From IMG/VR virus record IMGVR_UViG_3300010354_000662, positions 1-23,771 of that record: a DNA stretch of 23,771 nucleotides; one strand, written 5' to 3'. The notes under the pieces are model-generated. The model was not told the origin of the DNA. It saw only the letters and a program-made list of their open reading frames with translations, and did no database searches. The stretch is from a virus. Positions 7,283-23,394 of this stretch are shown piece after piece; positions within the stretch are counted from its first letter, which is position 1, and each line of letters opens with the position of its first letter. The translations under genes were made by a program, and so were the position numbers.

Positions 7283-10200
7283 TTAGGCTCCAAACCGTTG
7301 ACGAAGAATGTTATAGTTTTGACGTATTTGATCGGCAGTTAACACTTGGGAATACATTCTTACGATTCCAACATTTCCTTGAATGCCGTAATTTGTGTCT
7401 CCCGTCCAAGAAGAACCATAAGGATATAGAGTCATTATGCAAAGAGAAAGATTTCCATTTCCGCCTGTAGGCGTATTATTGGTGATAGAATGACTAACCG
7501 ATCCAATCAAACTGCCATTTCTATAAACTATTTTTTCAGTTGGGGTCAATATTGCAAATATGTGTTCCCAATTTCCAGTGGACAGCGTGGGGAATGCCAA
7601 ATCATGCTGTTGAGTTCCAACTGTATTGTAGAAAGAATTATGTGTTATCCAATAATCGTATTCACCGTTACCGTTCCAAGGCTTGGACAAAAATCTTCCA
7701 CTTGTATCGGTAGACCTTACCCACATTTCTATTGATAGTGTATTATTTCCTACACCACTTGGGGTCCATGTGAAGTGATTGGTGGTGCTAGGAATATGAA
7801 CACTATCGTTCAATCCATCAAACACAAGAACTCCACCAGCCTCAGAACTAAAGACAGGACCGCCCATCAATGTTCCCACATGAGAATTTCCACTTATATC
7901 AAACCATGAAGTTCCACTTCCTGGATATGAATTTGTTTTTCCAGAATCTAACCAAAGTATCAGGCTACTATTTATCAGATAATCTTCCGTATTAGGAGTA
8001 TTAACTGCTGCGATCTTTCTGCCTGTAGCAAGGGAATAGTTCCTTGCCTCATGACCGTTTAAATACGTTTGCAGCCTGAATGAAGAATTCCGAGTCCATT
8101 CACCCACTGCCACACCAAAGCATACACCAGATACATGGGGATCATATGCCATGCTGTTCTGCTGAACGCCCGTTTTTGATCCTGATGGACGGAATCCAAC
8201 TAATCCTGAAGGCGAAACCGATGGATACAGTAAACTACCGTTCGGAAGAACTCTGTAGTAAGTGGAATTTGCCAAAGCAGTATTTCTGTCAACAGGATTA
8301 TATGAACGGTGGTAAAGAACAGTATCGTCCCTACGATACGAAGTTAATCCTGCATCTGAAGAGAACAGCCCCAAACCACGATCATAACCATCAACGGTAG
8401 GTCGAACCACCATAAAAATATCAACTTCGCCCTGCAAATTAAGCGGATTGGTAAGATAGATGTGTTGACCACTCAAAATGCGTTCAGCCGTTGTTCCTGC
8501 TCCGTGTGTGTTTCCTAACTGTATCCATTGTGCAAGGCTAGCACCATTCCATGTGGTGGTTGGCGCATACAGCGCACCACCATTGAAACACACTCCTGTT
8601 GGACCAGCAATGGAACCAAAAGAAATAGTGGGTCGTAACTTGTCTATGGTTACACCTGCGGCAGAGTATGCTGCACCATTGAACCTGCCCCATGTTGGCG
8701 GAAGAGCATGGTTCTGTGATGGAGAAGAGTCTCTCCAAACGTCAACACTTGCTCCGTTTACCGCCGAACCGCAAACACCAATATTTTCAGGCTTCAGCCA
8801 AAGCATCAACCCGCTGATGTGAGAAGGGTCAAGAGTGCTCTCTTTGTTGCCCCAAGTTGTTCCGTTGTCCCACCAAGACGCTGTGCTGCCCAAAGGCGAT
8901 CCTGTGGGATTGTGTGCAGTTATTCCGTTCTCGTCTGCAACAGTGTAGGTGTATCCCAAACCAGAATTTGCAAACACAGATCCCAAAGGAGCAGTTGTTC
9001 CATTAGCCCCGACCTGTGCCGTTGAACCAATGTATGGGTTATAGCCTATTGGATAGTAGTCTCCTGTGTTTCCATACCACTTTCCTCCTGCAAATGATCC
9101 ACCAGGAACAATGTTTTTGTACGGATGAGTAGACGGCAATTTACCTGCAAGATCGTACTTGTGGGCAAGATAGCCTTCAATCTTTTGGCGATCTGCTTCT
9201 CCCACATCACCCTGATAGCAGAGAATTTCAGCAATTTCACCGTCAAAGCAAGTGTCAACTGTATTAGACGGCATTCCTATCCCGAGTCTTGATGTTTGAA
9301 TAGCACTTGTTGGCAACTGAGCAGAAGAAGTAGTTCCCAAGCAAATACCATTCAAGAAAAGAGACAGCGGACCAGAGTTTCCAGAACCATTAAGGAATGT
9401 TTGAGAAATTAGTTTCCACTCTCCAGTTGGACCCAAATCACCAATAACCCAATTGGTTCTACTTGCTCCTGTATTCCAACCAAACACTCTAGGAATAGTA
9501 TTTCCTCCCGTGTAGCCAACAGCAATTCCATGTTGTCCCGAAGAATCGCTTAAAATGTGTCTAGTATTTCCCGATGGAGATCCAATAGAACCAATGGTAT
9601 CCAATCGTCGTGGTTTGCAAACCACAAAGTACGAACGAGAAGCCGTAAGACCCAACCTACCCATTGTTGGTCCAAGATGTCCATACCCAAAAGACCTCCA
9701 CCTAGTATTTGTGGACACCGAATAAAGATCACTTGTTGAGTCATTAATCGGTCTAAACACCAACGATGGGTGAGTATTTACCGCTTCTTCTTTAAATCGT
9801 GGAGTTGTCCATACATCTTCATATGCTGGATAGTGTCCAAAAGTAAAACCACCAACCAAACTGTTCCAAACATTAACTCCTAGTGCTGTATATCCCAAAC
9901 TAGTCCAACCAGCACTAACACCCGCAGAAGTATTACCTTCAACAGTATAAGTACTTAACCAAACCTGAAGAGTTGCTCCAAGAACCTGGTTGGGGAGGAA
10001 AATGCTGTTGCGGAGATTGTTGAATGTTCGTAGAGTGTAGGGAGTAAACTGACCAATTATTGGGGTTTCAGAGAAAGTTGCCTGAGTGGATGATGATATA
10101 GTGTTGTCTATGGAAGCCTTTGACAATATAGAACCAAACATCCGTAATCCAGCAGGATGTACAAGATTACGAAGAACTTCAAAGTAACTGTCTAGAGATA

Positions 10201-11263
10201 TACGAGACTTCAATTCATAAGAAAAGTCCTGATAGTAGTGTCCGTCCTGTATTTTCTTGTTGGAAGAAACTTTTCCACGATTTTCTCTGTAGTAGCCAGG
10301 ATAGTTGGTAACTGCGCTTCTTATGGCTACAACTTTAGCATTTTGAGTTCCAAAATCATTGAATATGTTCAGCACAATATCAGTTGGATAATTGACTCCA
10401 GAATTGGTGATGGATATCCTCTTGATTCCTCCAGCCAAACCAACTTGGTCAATCTTCGCGGAAAAACCAGTTCCTCCGCTTTCATCTGTGACAGAAACGG
10501 TATTGCCAACCTTATATCCTTGACCAGGCAACTCAACAAAAAACTCACCTAATACTGGATATGCAGTTTCTATAAAGGTAGTCTCGTTTTTTGTAATGAT
10601 TACTTCACGGTTGGGAGAAAAATCACCAATAATTCCAGATACAAAAAACTCGCAAATAGGAACACCATTCAGTTGGTACTGAACAACTGCATCTATTAGT
10701 GCAGTAGCAACTAATTCGGTTCCATTGTATTGTGATATCTGTCCTCCGTTTGCGGAAAACAAATTTTGACCGTTTGTAAGAGTTGTTTTTATTGATTTTG
10801 GCTCTATCCACTGACCATCAGAAACTTTTAACACATCTGTTTTGGGATAGTAAAACTCTAAATCACTATCGTAGAGTATCTTAAAGAGAAAACGATATGC
10901 ACTCTCTGTACCCTTGTTGCCGTAGAAGTCACGAATTTTCTTGAGAAGCGTTTTCTTGTTTGGTTTGTTTCCGTCTGTATCTACAGCAAATAGTTCGGGA
11001 AAAGAAGACAGATAAGTGTTCTTGAAATGACTATAGAACTCTTCGGAGTTTTGATCCACATCATATGCATCTTCCAATCCATACAACACGTTTCCAACGT
11101 TTCCGTTTTGATCAAGCCACTCATAGTATGCTTTTGTAAGAAGAACCAACTTGCTGTAGTTCTCTTTCATGAAAGAAGGAAACTGCTCACGAATAAAAGG
11201 AGCCAATATCCTTTCCAACTCCTCTTCTGGAGTTTCTGCTAGGATTTTGGTTACTGCGTTCAT
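7283..11263 (-). CDS. gp7-like baseplate wedge domain fused to three LamG-like modules
   Basis: 1326 residues. Residues 1-385 match the pattern of the T4 gp7 C-terminal region: FPSFMKENYSKL, AYYEWLDQNGNV, KIRDFYGNKGTESAYRFLFK, and later YYQDFSYELKSRI with LRNLVHPAGLRMFG. The rest is lectin-like. LamG module 1 spans about 430-705 (LQVWLS at the start; FDGEIAEIL and IEGYLAHKYDL at the end). A Gly/Pro-rich linker follows at about 715-810. Module 2 spans about 815-1085 (GLMLWLKPENIG ... VDIFMVVRP). Module 3 spans about 1095-1326 (LILWLDSGKT, WFDISGN, VLVFDGLNDSVHIP, LSIEMWVRS). Position between gp6 and gp8 equals that of gene 7 in T4. The N-terminal two thirds of T4 gp7 have no counterpart. I infer a wedge-anchored protein displaying carbohydrate-binding modules. 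gp7 relatedness is moderately sure; LamG folds are sure for modules 1 and 3, less so for 2. Confidence 0.78.
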   Translation of the reverse strand: MNAVTKILAETPEEELERILAPFIREQFPSFMKENYSKLVLLTKAYYEWLDQNGNVGNVLYGLEDAYDVDQNSEEFYSHFKNTYLSSFPELFAVDTDGNKPNKKTLLKKIRDFYGNKGTESAYRFLFKILYDSDLEFYYPKTDVLKVSDGQWIEPKSIKTTLTNGQNLFSANGGQISQYNGTELVATALIDAVVQYQLNGVPICEFFVSGIIGDFSPNREVIITKNETTFIETAYPVLGEFFVELPGQGYKVGNTVSVTDESGGTGFSAKIDQVGLAGGIKRISITNSGVNYPTDIVLNIFNDFGTQNAKVVAIRSAVTNYPGYYRENRGKVSSNKKIQDGHYYQDFSYELKSRISLDSYFEVLRNLVHPAGLRMFGSILSKASIDNTISSSTQATFSETPIIGQFTPYTLRTFNNLRNSIFLPNQVLGATLQVWLSTYTVEGNTSAGVSAGWTSLGYTALGVNVWNSLVGGFTFGHYPAYEDVWTTPRFKEEAVNTHPSLVFRPINDSTSDLYSVSTNTRWRSFGYGHLGPTMGRLGLTASRSYFVVCKPRRLDTIGSIGSPSGNTRHILSDSSGQHGIAVGYTGGNTIPRVFGWNTGASRTNWVIGDLGPTGEWKLISQTFLNGSGNSGPLSLFLNGICLGTTSSAQLPTSAIQTSRLGIGMPSNTVDTCFDGEIAEILCYQGDVGEADRQKIEGYLAHKYDLAGKLPSTHPYKNIVPGGSFAGGKWYGNTGDYYPIGYNPYIGSTAQVGANGTTAPLGSVFANSGLGYTYTVADENGITAHNPTGSPLGSTASWWDNGTTWGNKESTLDPSHISGLMLWLKPENIGVCGSAVNGASVDVWRDSSPSQNHALPPTWGRFNGAAYSAAGVTIDKLRPTISFGSIAGPTGVCFNGGALYAPTTTWNGASLAQWIQLGNTHGAGTTAERILSGQHIYLTNPLNLQGEVDIFMVVRPTVDGYDRGLGLFSSDAGLTSYRRDDTVLYHRSYNPVDRNTALANSTYYRVLPNGSLLYPSVSPSGLVGFRPSGSKTGVQQNSMAYDPHVSGVCFGVAVGEWTRNSSFRLQTYLNGHEARNYSLATGRKIAAVNTPNTEDYLINSSLILWLDSGKTNSYPGSGTSWFDISGNSHVGTLMGGPVFSSEAGGVLVFDGLNDSVHIPSTTNHFTWTPSGVGNNTLSIEMWVRSTDTSGRFLSKPWNGNGEYDYWITHNSFYNTVGTQQHDLAFPTLSTGNWEHIFAILTPTEKIVYRNGSLIGSVSHSITNNTPTGGNGNLSLCIMTLYPYGSSWTGDTNYGIQGNVGIVRMYSQVLTADQIRQNYNILRQRFGA

Positions 11264-13095: not shown

Positions 13096-13505
13096 TACCG
13101 TACCCTCTCTAGAGTTACCGTCAACCTGTCTGCTGTTCCTACTGCAACAATTGAATATTCGATATTGACCACATAATGATTCTGATCAGGATAAGCAACC
13201 ACATCCACTAACAGATTATCTATTCGTGGTTCATGATTTCTTATGGTCTGTATTATTCTGTCTTTGAGTTCAAATGTGGTTATTGCATCTATGGGTTCAA
13301 ACAACAGGTTTCGTATAGCACAACCTATTTCTGGTTGAAATAGCCGCTCTCCATATGCTGTTGAAAGCAAATTTTTTACTGATACACGAACAGCCCCATC
13401 ATTTTTTGAAACAATAATGTCTCCGGTCTTAAAACTACGGGTCAGATTAGGATCTAAATCCGTAAATATTGGTTTGTCGTCCGTTCCTACTACCTTTAGT
13501 GGCAT
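13095..13505 (-). CDS. 25: Baseplate wedge protein gp25 (lysozyme-like fold)
   Basis: 136 residues, close to the 132 of T4 gp25. Visible features are DLDPNLTRSFKTGDI, the loop GERLFQPEIGC (52-62), LLFEPID (67-73) and the EPR motif at residues 92-94, which in gp25 family proteins binds gp6 and the sheath. gp25 initiates sheath polymerisation from the baseplate and is conserved in nearly all contractile injection systems. Despite the lysozyme-like fold name, no enzymatic role is expected. The start overlaps the preceding stop and its own stop overlaps the gp6 start by one base each. Confidence 0.95.
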   Translation of the reverse strand: MPLKVVGTDDKPIFTDLDPNLTRSFKTGDIIVSKNDGAVRVSVKNLLSTAYGERLFQPEIGCAIRNLLFEPIDAITTFELKDRIIQTIRNHEPRIDNLLVDVVAYPDQNHYVVNIEYSIVAVGTADRLTVTLERVR

Positions 13506-14176
13506 TACTTTATTCCTGTGCTATACGTTAGATACGAATTTATGTTGTGGGTGGTCTGTGCTACTAACTCTTCTACGCTTGCTTTTGATATTCCCTCTCG
13601 CTCTATTTCATCTAGACTGTCGGAAGAACACCAATGACAGCACAAAAATCCTAGTGGAGTTATACCATCGTCACACTTTAGGGGAGCGATAGTGAAAAAC
13701 TCTACATTATTTATCTCAAGTGCTGAACGAAATGCGGAATGCGATAGGGATGAAACAGATAATATTTTAGAAGGTTTTGTCTCCATTAGGCTTATCATAT
13801 CGGTGTACTTTGTCAACAAAACATCTTGAGAATCTAAAAGTAAAGCCGAAATTCCCATTTCACACGACTCATGAGTAACAGAAAACCTTTTGATAGATCC
13901 TCCATCAACAAAGTTTCCTCCATTATGAAATTGAAAAACCACGGCTCGGGAGGCTCTAACAGTCACTCGGAGTTCCGTTAAAAGTTCGTGTATATTGCTG
14001 TGCTTTTCTACAAACTTCTTTTCCCGTGCAGGAGTCCATTTATTTCCTGCCCGTTGGCGACGAAATGCACCAACAAGTCCCACAACCAATCCCACCAAAA
14101 AAATACCCGCAATTTCACCTGCAATCCTTATAAACTCATGAAATCCAGATAATGCTTGTGTTTCTGCAATAGTCAT
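13505..14176 (-). CDS. Predicted membrane-anchored protein with possible GAF-like domain
   Basis: 223 residues. A single hydrophobic segment lies at about 19-38 (AGEIAGIFLVGLVVGLVGAF), followed by the basic stretch RRQRAGNK. The soluble remainder (about 60-185) includes ELLTELR, RAVVFQFHNGGNFV, KRFSVTHESCEMGIS and GFLCCHWCSSD, which recalls small GAF-like sensor domains seen in phage membrane proteins. The positive-inside rule would place this domain in the cytoplasm. It starts with an ATGA overlap with the upstream structural gene and its stop overlaps the gp25 start, so it is co-translated with baseplate genes although it does not look like a baseplate protein. One N-terminal membrane segment plus about 180 soluble residues resembles T4 holin in size, but the predicted topology is opposite and I see no clear sequence match. 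Function is unknown. Confidence 0.72.
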   Translation of the reverse strand: MTIAETQALSGFHEFIRIAGEIAGIFLVGLVVGLVGAFRRQRAGNKWTPAREKKFVEKHSNIHELLTELRVTVRASRAVVFQFHNGGNFVDGGSIKRFSVTHESCEMGISALLLDSQDVLLTKYTDMISLMETKPSKILSVSSLSHSAFRSALEINNVEFFTIAPLKCDDGITPLGFLCCHWCSSDSLDEIEREGISKASVEELVAQTTHNINSYLTYSTGIK

Positions 14177-15342: not shown

Positions 15343-15825
15343 TTAAAAATAAGATCCACCATCAACCTTAAAACTTACTACACCAGTAATTCCATTAAAC
15401 GAAATAACATAATCACCGACAATTCCACTAGGACCAGTTGGACCCGTATTTCCCTGCGGACCAGTTGCACCTGTATTTCCCTGCGGACCAATAGGACCAG
15501 TTGCACCTGTATTTCCCTGCGGACCAATGGGACCAGTTGCTCCAGTGTTTCCCTGTGGACCACTAGAACCAGTTGCACCTGTATTTCCCTGCGGACCAAT
15601 AGGACCAGTTGCTCCAGTGTTTCCCTGTGGACCCGTTGGACCACCAAAAAACACTTGCATAACAACAAATCCAGAATTATTTTCTTCTGGAAGTTTTCCA
15701 AAAGTGCTATCTACATCGCATATGTAAAAAACACCATTTCTAGAGACAATATCTCCATACTTGTATACAGCATACTGAGAGGTTCCTGCTGCATATTTTC
15801 TGTGTTTTCCTCGATAATTGCTCAT
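15343..15825 (-). CDS. Collagen-like repeat protein with short N-terminal binding-type domain
   Basis: 160 residues in three parts. Residues 1-60 contain [19 protein letters not shown], the Y..GD.V...G..Y pattern of small chitin/carbohydrate-binding-like modules in phage fibres. Residues 62-136 are 25 uninterrupted Gly-X-Y triplets, mostly a 12-residue unit [12 protein letters not shown], expected to form a collagen triple helix. The C-terminus contains [11 protein letters not shown], a motif common at trimeric phage fibre ends. ATG at 15825 overlaps the gp5 stop (TAATG) with AAGGG upstream. Its place between the gp5 spike and PAAR genes is unusual. I infer a thin trimeric fibre or tail decoration; the partner is unknown. 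Confidence 0.85.
15418..15642 (-). repeat. Tandem 36-bp repeats encoding the collagen-like Gly-X-Y tract
   Basis: Five 36-bp units plus partial units encode (GPI/GPT/GSS)GPQGNTGAT. Two sequence variants of the unit are visible on the plus strand: one with gcacctgtatttccctgc and one with gctccagtgtttccctgt. They alternate towards the right end, making a 72-bp higher-order period. This points to expansion by slippage or unequal recombination. Confidence 0.9.
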
Positions 15826-22501: not shown

Positions 22502-23212
22502 ATGAATACATTGAATCTACAAAACAGTACTCTTCCGCAATACACCATGACTCTTCCCGTGTCAGGAACCATTCATAAGTACAGACCATTCATCGTTAAA
22601 GAAGAAAAAATACTACTGATGGCACTTCAGGCTAAAGACCTGAATCAGATTAATGATGCAATGAGAACCGTGATTAGTGCCTGCACCAACGGATCTATTG
22701 ATACACGAAAAGTATGCACTGCTGATGCAGAGTATGCATTTCTGCAAATACGCTCAAAATCTGTTGGAGAAGAGGTAAAGCCCGAAGTTGAATGTTCCAA
22801 CTGCCACAAGAAAACCAATATCAAAATCAAGTTAGATACAATCACCGTATCAACACTAGACAAGCAAAAAGTTGATCCAATGATCAGTATCACAGATAAT
22901 GTTACTATCGTCATGCGATATCCATGTATACACGATATTAACTACAACGACAACGAAATAGAAATAGCGTTTAACATTGCAAAATCATGCATTGAATCGG
23001 TGGTTATTGATGACAAAGTTCATGAGGCTAAAGACATTAATCCAAAAGAACTATCGGATTTTGTGGACAATATGCTTCCTGAACAGTTCTCAAAAATCAT
23101 GGATTTTATCCAAAGCATACCTGAACTCCGATACAAATTTAAATATACCTGCCCATCTTGCTCAAGCACTGTTAATGTACAGTTGAATTCGGTGTCTGAT
23201 TTTTTTCGGTAG
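22502..23212 (+). CDS. 26: Baseplate hub / tail-assembly chaperone gp26-like (T4_baseplate family), zero-frame product
   Basis: 236 residues; T4 gp26 has 208. The family pattern is clear: LPQYTMTLPVSGTIHKYRPF, IVKEEKILLMALQAKD, YAFLQIRSKSVGEEVKPEVE. Two CxxC knuckles (C98-C101 in CSNC and C217-C220 in CPSC) probably form one zinc site. gp26 is needed for hub assembly in T4. In many phages, proteins of this position act as chaperones for the tape measure. A strong AAAAAGGAA lies 5 nt before the ATG. The gene ends GAT TTT TTT CGG TAG, which places a run of seven T directly before the stop in the phase required for -1 slippage; see the extension. Confidence 0.85.
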   Translation: MNTLNLQNSTLPQYTMTLPVSGTIHKYRPFIVKEEKILLMALQAKDLNQINDAMRTVISACTNGSIDTRKVCTADAEYAFLQIRSKSVGEEVKPEVECSNCHKKTNIKIKLDTITVSTLDKQKVDPMISITDNVTIVMRYPCIHDINYNDNEIEIAFNIAKSCIESVVIDDKVHEAKDINPKELSDFVDNMLPEQFSKIMDFIQSIPELRYKFKYTCPSCSSTVNVQLNSVSDFFR

Positions 23213-23237
23213 CCCTCTGTCATAGCGACTTGGGGGC
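23200..23237 (+). promoter_or_regulatory. Predicted programmed -1 ribosomal frameshift signal
   Basis: T23200-T23206 form T_TTT_TTT in the gp26 zero frame (GAT TTT TTT). After a 5-nt spacer (CGGTA), 23212-23217 GCCCTC can pair with 23232-23237 GGGGGC (six pairs, one G-U). Above an internal loop, 23219-23221 GTC pairs with 23227-23229 GAC around a 5-nt loop. The -1 frame is closed by TGA at 23197 and the zero frame by TAG at 23210, so the shift can only happen on this heptamer. Confidence 0.8.
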
Positions 23238-23394
23238 GTACTATCAGACAAATTTCAGCCTGATGAAGCACCACGGGTATTCTCTTACTGAAATAGAAGA
23301 GATGATTCCTTGGGAGCGAGAGGTATACATACAAATGCTGATTCAGTATTTGAAAAAAGAACGGGAGCGAGTATCAAAAAGAAAACCCCTGTGA
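23206..23394 (+). CDS. -1-frame C-terminal extension of the gp26-like protein (tail-chaperone fusion)
   Basis: After slippage on TTT TTT, translation continues for 62 codons to the TGA at 23392-23394, giving a fusion of 297 residues (235 plus 62). The extension contains LGAYYQTNFSLMKHHGYSLT, EIEEMIPWEREVYIQMLIQY and a basic end KKERERVSKRKPL. Such a YY..NF.LM.HH.YSL..LE.M.PWER.IY pattern is what I recognise from T4-like and other phages just before the tape-measure gene. The frame has no ATG until 23263, inside the motif, with no Shine-Dalgarno, and a TTG at 23230 is equally unsupported. Independent translation would therefore remove the start of the conserved part. By analogy with lambda gpG-T, the fusion would bind the tape measure. 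The frameshift is inferred. Confidence 0.78.
   Translation, partial: SVALCHSDLGAYYQTNFSLMKHHGYSLTEIEEMIPWEREVYIQMLIQYLKKERERVSKRKPL

Follow-up and report, generated by a model that had tools for sequence, protein, structure and literature searches.

The gp26 gene of this uncultivated T4-type virus very probably ends in a programmed -1 ribosomal frameshift, such that a single gene yields both a short tail-assembly chaperone (TAC-N, gp26) and a long one in which gp26 is joined to a gp51 domain (TAC-NC, gp26-gp51), the two presumably acting as chaperones of the tape measure in the manner of lambda G/GT. The probability of this overall reading is put at roughly nine in ten. In a preliminary description of the DNA it had been proposed that gp26 is fused to the C-terminal domain of a tail chaperone through a programmed -1 frameshift, and comparative sequence analysis now gives that proposal strong support. 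The window referred to throughout is the whole stretch of 23,771 nucleotides that was analysed.

The gp26 gene and the frame overlapping its end

The product of the gp26 gene (Table 1) matches the PF12322 T4_baseplate profile (E 1.3e-55, profile 2-219 of 219) and the baseplate hub family phrog_150 (E 1.2e-56). A structure model of gp26 (pLDDT 87) has confident viral matches in the gp26 family, these being predicted structures; comparison of the model with the PDB by fold gave no match at E <= 0.001, and comparison with the PDB by sequence gave nothing useful. As the model thus matches gp26-family predictions only, and no solved structure, the fold offers no guide to function.

The final codons of gp26 are GAT TTT TTT CGG TAG and, as was recognised when the DNA was first described, the T_TTT_TTT within them stands in the zero-frame phase at the very end of the gene. 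The -1 frame is bounded by TGA codons at 23197-23199 upstream and at 23392-23394 downstream, which bears out the accompanying claim that both frames are open solely over 23200-23209. The -1 ORF itself matches PHROG 634 (phrog_634, gp51, annotated as 'baseplate hub assembly catalyst') with E 3.6e-26, and translation beyond the slip is predicted to give FSVALCHSDLGAYYQTNFSLMKHHGYSLTEIEEMIPWEREVYIQMLIQYLKKERERVSKRKPL. The preliminary description had seen here 62 residues carrying what looked like a conserved tail-protein motif and had suggested comparison with a gp51-type profile; the coding nature of the stretch stands, but the motif is not an unknown one, being that of the gp51 family.

In-frame T_TTT_TTN motifs are present in five genes of the window. 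That in gp26 is the sole site lying four codons before a gene end, where it opens a -1 ORF of 64 codons, and the remaining sites open just 3-38 codons in the -1 frame. Runs of seven T's number 7 in the whole window against 16 expected; this scarcity was dropped as evidence, such runs being common. Taken by itself the heptamer is weak evidence, and it is its conservation, as judged from the aligned relatives described below, that raises the site above chance.

Both strands around gp26 and gp51 carry T4-type structural genes of the ordinary sort, namely those for gp4-like head closure, gp2-like DNA end protector, tail tube, gp48-like tube cap and gp53 wedge proteins, and the gene order around gp26/gp51 resembles that of cyanophages and Methylophilales phages. 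The ORF that follows gp51 is cut by the end of the contig, its counterparts in close relatives having 607-653 aa. The counterparts in the more distant Melnitz-2, P-HM2 and Cr30 match tape-measure families, and those in the two closest relatives gave no tape-measure family match; because such matches occur only in distant counterparts, the tape-measure step of the mechanism given below is one that we infer.

Three further genes, all on the minus strand, were observed in passing. A gene at 15343-15825 encodes collagen-like GPTGPQG repeats (PF01391, E 4e-13) and lies beside a gene for a PAAR-motif spike tip, within the baseplate module; another, at 13505-14176, is inserted in the baseplate cluster and encodes a protein of 223 aa with an N-terminal hydrophobic segment and without a Pfam match. 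The third (7283-11263) encodes a protein of 1326 aa that resembles baseplate wedge proteins and has laminin-G/concanavalin-like domains (PF13385, E 3e-13), perhaps serving to bind surfaces.

Table 1. Positions of the features at the gp26-gp51 junction
Feature	Position	Strand	Remark
gp26 (TAC-N, short tail-assembly chaperone)	22502..23212	+	236 aa
Slippery heptamer T_TTT_TTT	23200..23206	+	zero-frame phase, fits a tandem -1 slip
-1 extension, gp51 domain (TAC-C)	23200..23394	+	FSVALCHSD...KRKPL then TGA; phrog_634
gp26 zero-frame stop TAG	23210..23212	+	3 nt 3' of the heptamer
Candidate stimulatory hairpin	23212..23237	+	GCCCTC/GGGGGC
Next ORF, 5' part, cut by contig end	23424..23771	+	tape-measure-like by position

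Conservation of the junction and reading of the -1 frame

Relatives gathered from IMG/VR and from phage records comprise 225 loci with gp26. A recognisable gp51 domain is present at 216 of them, and in every one of these 216 it is encoded in the -1 frame, in overlap with the 3' end of gp26. When distinct junctions are considered, gp51 in the -1 frame is accompanied at 179 of 180 by an in-phase T_TTT_TTN located 0-24 nt upstream of the gp26 stop; the last base of this heptamer varies (C 103, T 50, A 21, G 5), and its spacing to the stop is 3 nt, as in the window, at 137 of the 179 junctions. The exception is Salmonella phage Det7, which has a gp51-like sequence in the -1 frame without a canonical heptamer. 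The junction of Vibrio phage K357 is likewise gp26/gp51-like and in the -1 frame, although no gp51 match was scored; the heptamer is absent there and TAATG is present.

Conservation extends to the codons used. Across 45 clusters, defined at <60% identity, the first slippery codon is TTT without exception, including in lineages where TTT accounts for 0-11% of gp26 Phe codons elsewhere, and the codon preceding it likewise ends in T in 45/45 clusters. The probability of the latter, estimated from codon usage and ignoring shared descent, is about 7e-12, a value that overstates independence since the clusters share descent. The corresponding product of TTT codon frequencies was not used, as it comes to 0 solely through one cluster representative in which TTT does not occur elsewhere.

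The slippery site is thus almost certainly real and common to well over a hundred related viruses. A sequencing error, or a chance overlap of gp26 and gp51 as independent genes, might be entertained given how common heptamers of the T_TTT_TTN type are in the window by chance, but an identical break, in the same frame and with the same heptamer, is seen throughout the 45 divergent clusters, which come from independent assemblies, and in isolate genomes, by which either idea is effectively refuted. At the level of sequence, the coding arrangement for two products is established. The alignment of gp26 homologues advocated in the preliminary description finds the slippery run and the -1 ORF conserved, with the run usually 3 nt ahead of the gp26 stop; the stem, which was to be included in the same comparison, has support in the close family only.

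Within the close family, substitutions downstream of the slip are distributed 769:412:237 over -1-frame positions 3:1:2, and in the first 20 codons of the -1 frame they are distributed 273:98:91 over positions 3:2:1. Most of these 20 codons precede the first ATG in the window, which begins 63 nt downstream of the first heptamer base. Because it is third positions that change most rapidly, starting with the codons directly behind the slip and ahead of any usable start, the -1 frame appears to be translated as a fusion.

Production of gp51 as a separate protein, whether from a start codon belonging to it or through reinitiation by ribosomes that have just terminated on gp26, is considered very improbable. 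Annotators have assigned internal starts to gp51 in many cyanophages (e.g. P-HM2 and syn9) and in Melnitz-2, and a stop-start overlap (TGATG or TAATG) occurs in the -1 frame at 11 of the 180 junctions, including those of Cr30, RHph_I1_9 and PVA8, and also in Yut2. In the window, however, the stop codon has no overlapping start, and the first in-frame candidates, a TTG at +30 and the ATG at +63 nt from the heptamer, lack a Shine-Dalgarno match, so that no start with such support precedes the conserved domain; the original judgement that the -1 frame has no usable start codon is therefore upheld. Further, residues ahead of the first Met show conservation, along with the codon periodicity of the -1 frame, whereas codons ahead of a separate start would not be conserved, and the slippery heptamer is retained even where TGATG or TAATG occurs. 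In Cr30, RHph_I1_9, Yut2 and PVA8 (the last with TAATG) heptamer and stop-start overlap are found together, such that frameshifting and reinitiation are both possible there; the ATG of the overlap may also do no more than encode a Met within the fusion.

Proposed mechanism and the candidate hairpin

We further infer a ribosomal mechanism, a product ratio and a role in assembly. Most ribosomes would terminate at the zero-frame TAG, giving gp26 (TAC-N), and a minority would slip back by one base on U_UUU_UUU, with the tRNAs in the P and A sites each pairing anew one base further upstream, perhaps with assistance from the hairpin 5 nt downstream. The shifted ribosomes would read on in the -1 frame to give gp26-gp51 (TAC-NC) of about 297 aa. 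On the model of lambda gpG/gpGT, the tape measure protein would be coated by many copies of TAC-N and few of TAC-NC, with the C-terminal (gp51) domain contacting or recruiting tail tube subunits and so starting polymerisation; the recruiting and coating roles at the tape measure are likewise those suggested by lambda. It counts against the proposal that U_UUU_UUU is far less shift-prone than A_AAA_AAG in Escherichia coli (PMC5009743).

A run of T's could also promote slippage by RNA polymerase, giving a mixed pool of mRNA, part of which encodes the fusion. The window has a run of seven T's, and runs of 7-9 T's occur at 52 of the 179 junctions; at the other 127 there are exactly six, ending in C, A or G, which is few for slippage by a polymerase, and at no junction does the run depart from the phase that a tandem -1 slip demands. 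Tandem tRNA slippage is the better fit to six T's in a fixed phase, and polymerase slippage is regarded as very improbable.

With respect to stimulation of the -1 ribosomal frameshift, the G/C-rich hairpin first described as lying 5 nt 3' of the heptamer does fold as proposed: its stem pairs 23212-23217 with 23232-23237, with one G-U pair, there is an inner stem of 3 bp, and folding of 23207-23246 as RNA gives a minimum free energy of -16.7 kcal/mol (z -3.0). In an alignment of the window with 6 close relatives, 96.8% of the pair cells are paired and two one-sided changes keep pairing; no pair among these sequences is altered on both sides, i.e. compensatory changes were not found. Retention of the hairpin in close relatives could be explained by codon constraint alone.

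Across the 45 clusters, the region just 3' of the heptamer has a mean folding z of -1.10, compared with -0.6 to +0.35 elsewhere in the gene; z falls below -2 in 13 of them, and most are without a strong stem. As a family-wide signal the hairpin was rejected, the base pairs of the window scoring 5.8 of 13 across clusters versus 3.3-4.8 when slid, and the hairpin being unformed in most clusters. A role for it as stimulator within the close family is plausible.

Annotation and comparison with T4 and other systems

In most of the deposited relatives that were checked gp51 is truncated, internally started or omitted. It appears as a truncated internal ORF in the records of P-HM2, syn9 and Melnitz-2, and is missing from those of ACG-2014h, DSL-LC03 and VmeM-32. 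Since its frame is mishandled in most checked records, annotation pipelines should join both frames. The value of the present results is modest, and chiefly one of annotation correction; beyond that, an uncultivated branch is added in support of frameshifting as the usual condition of gp26/gp51 outside the T4 subgroup.

The comparison with T4 itself is informative in this regard. T4 gp26 is homologous to the gp26 of the window, and T4 gp26 and gp51 are both PF12322 proteins: residues 1-201 of T4 gp51 match the profile over positions 1-219 (E 3.9e-52), and are followed by the same C-terminal domain as that encoded in the -1 frame here, the C-domain profile also matching T4 gp51 (20 bits). T4 gp51 is colinear with a fused gp26-gp51 profile, scoring 41 bits, compared with 10 for the N-terminal part alone and 20 for the C-terminal part alone. 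On these profile matches gp51 of T4 is a paralogue of gp26 and a TAC-NC encoded in a single frame, and its resemblance to a gp26 with a tail would follow from frameshifting being common outside the T4 subgroup. The two systems differ in that the short and long forms of T4 are encoded by two genes on opposite strands, in keeping with the original statement that the T4 hub genes are read separately, whereas the window has one frameshifted gene.

It is conceivable, if unlikely, that three routes to the long chaperone coexist among T4-like phages, i.e. frameshifting only (this virus and cyanophages), a heptamer combined with TGATG or TAATG (Cr30, RHph_I1_9 and PVA8) and a separate in-frame gene (T4 gp51), with the stop-start groups perhaps making both the fusion and free gp51 and so being intermediate between frameshifting and separate genes.

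Vladimirov and co-workers are said to have found frameshifting conserved in several groups of T4-like phages, with genes 26 and 51 as the T4 pair. Poly-T slippery sequences in 'TAC-N genes of T4-like phages' are attributed to their study (Vladimirov, Gautam & Davidson 2022, Virology 566:9-15, as cited by PMC12846349), and the PRFect paper (PMC10885494) cites the same work for T4-like phages with a short and a fused long TAC gene; a 2016 review had treated T4 as an exception to G-T frameshifting (PMC5009743). The poly-T -1 signals so described are, to the extent that the citing papers convey them, like that of the present virus, which is known from an uncultivated contig. The suggestion that a gp26 frameshift might be undescribed or underannotated can accordingly be retained in its second part, given the state of the deposited records, but not, for T4-like phages in general, in its first, a frameshifted TAC in T4-like phages having, by the account of the citing papers, been reported in 2022.

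Among other known systems, lambda has the slippery site G_GGA_AAG, which is unlike that of the window, and the site of P2 is T-rich (T_TTT_TTG). Compared by description, lambda gpG/gpGT is similar in that a short chaperone and a minor -1 extension of it serve the tape measure protein (PMC5009743), and the parallel with lambda drawn at the outset is judged apt. P2 gpE/gpE+E', again compared by description, is a myophage tail chaperone pair likewise produced via a -1 frameshift (PMC5009743). The TAC of the Vandenendeviridae and Andersonviridae, described for phage Adele, resembles the present case in that a -1 frameshift is conserved at the 3' terminus of TAC-N and its C-domain ORF is mis-annotated in databases; by that description it differs in its slippery motif, GTTTTT (PMC12846349).
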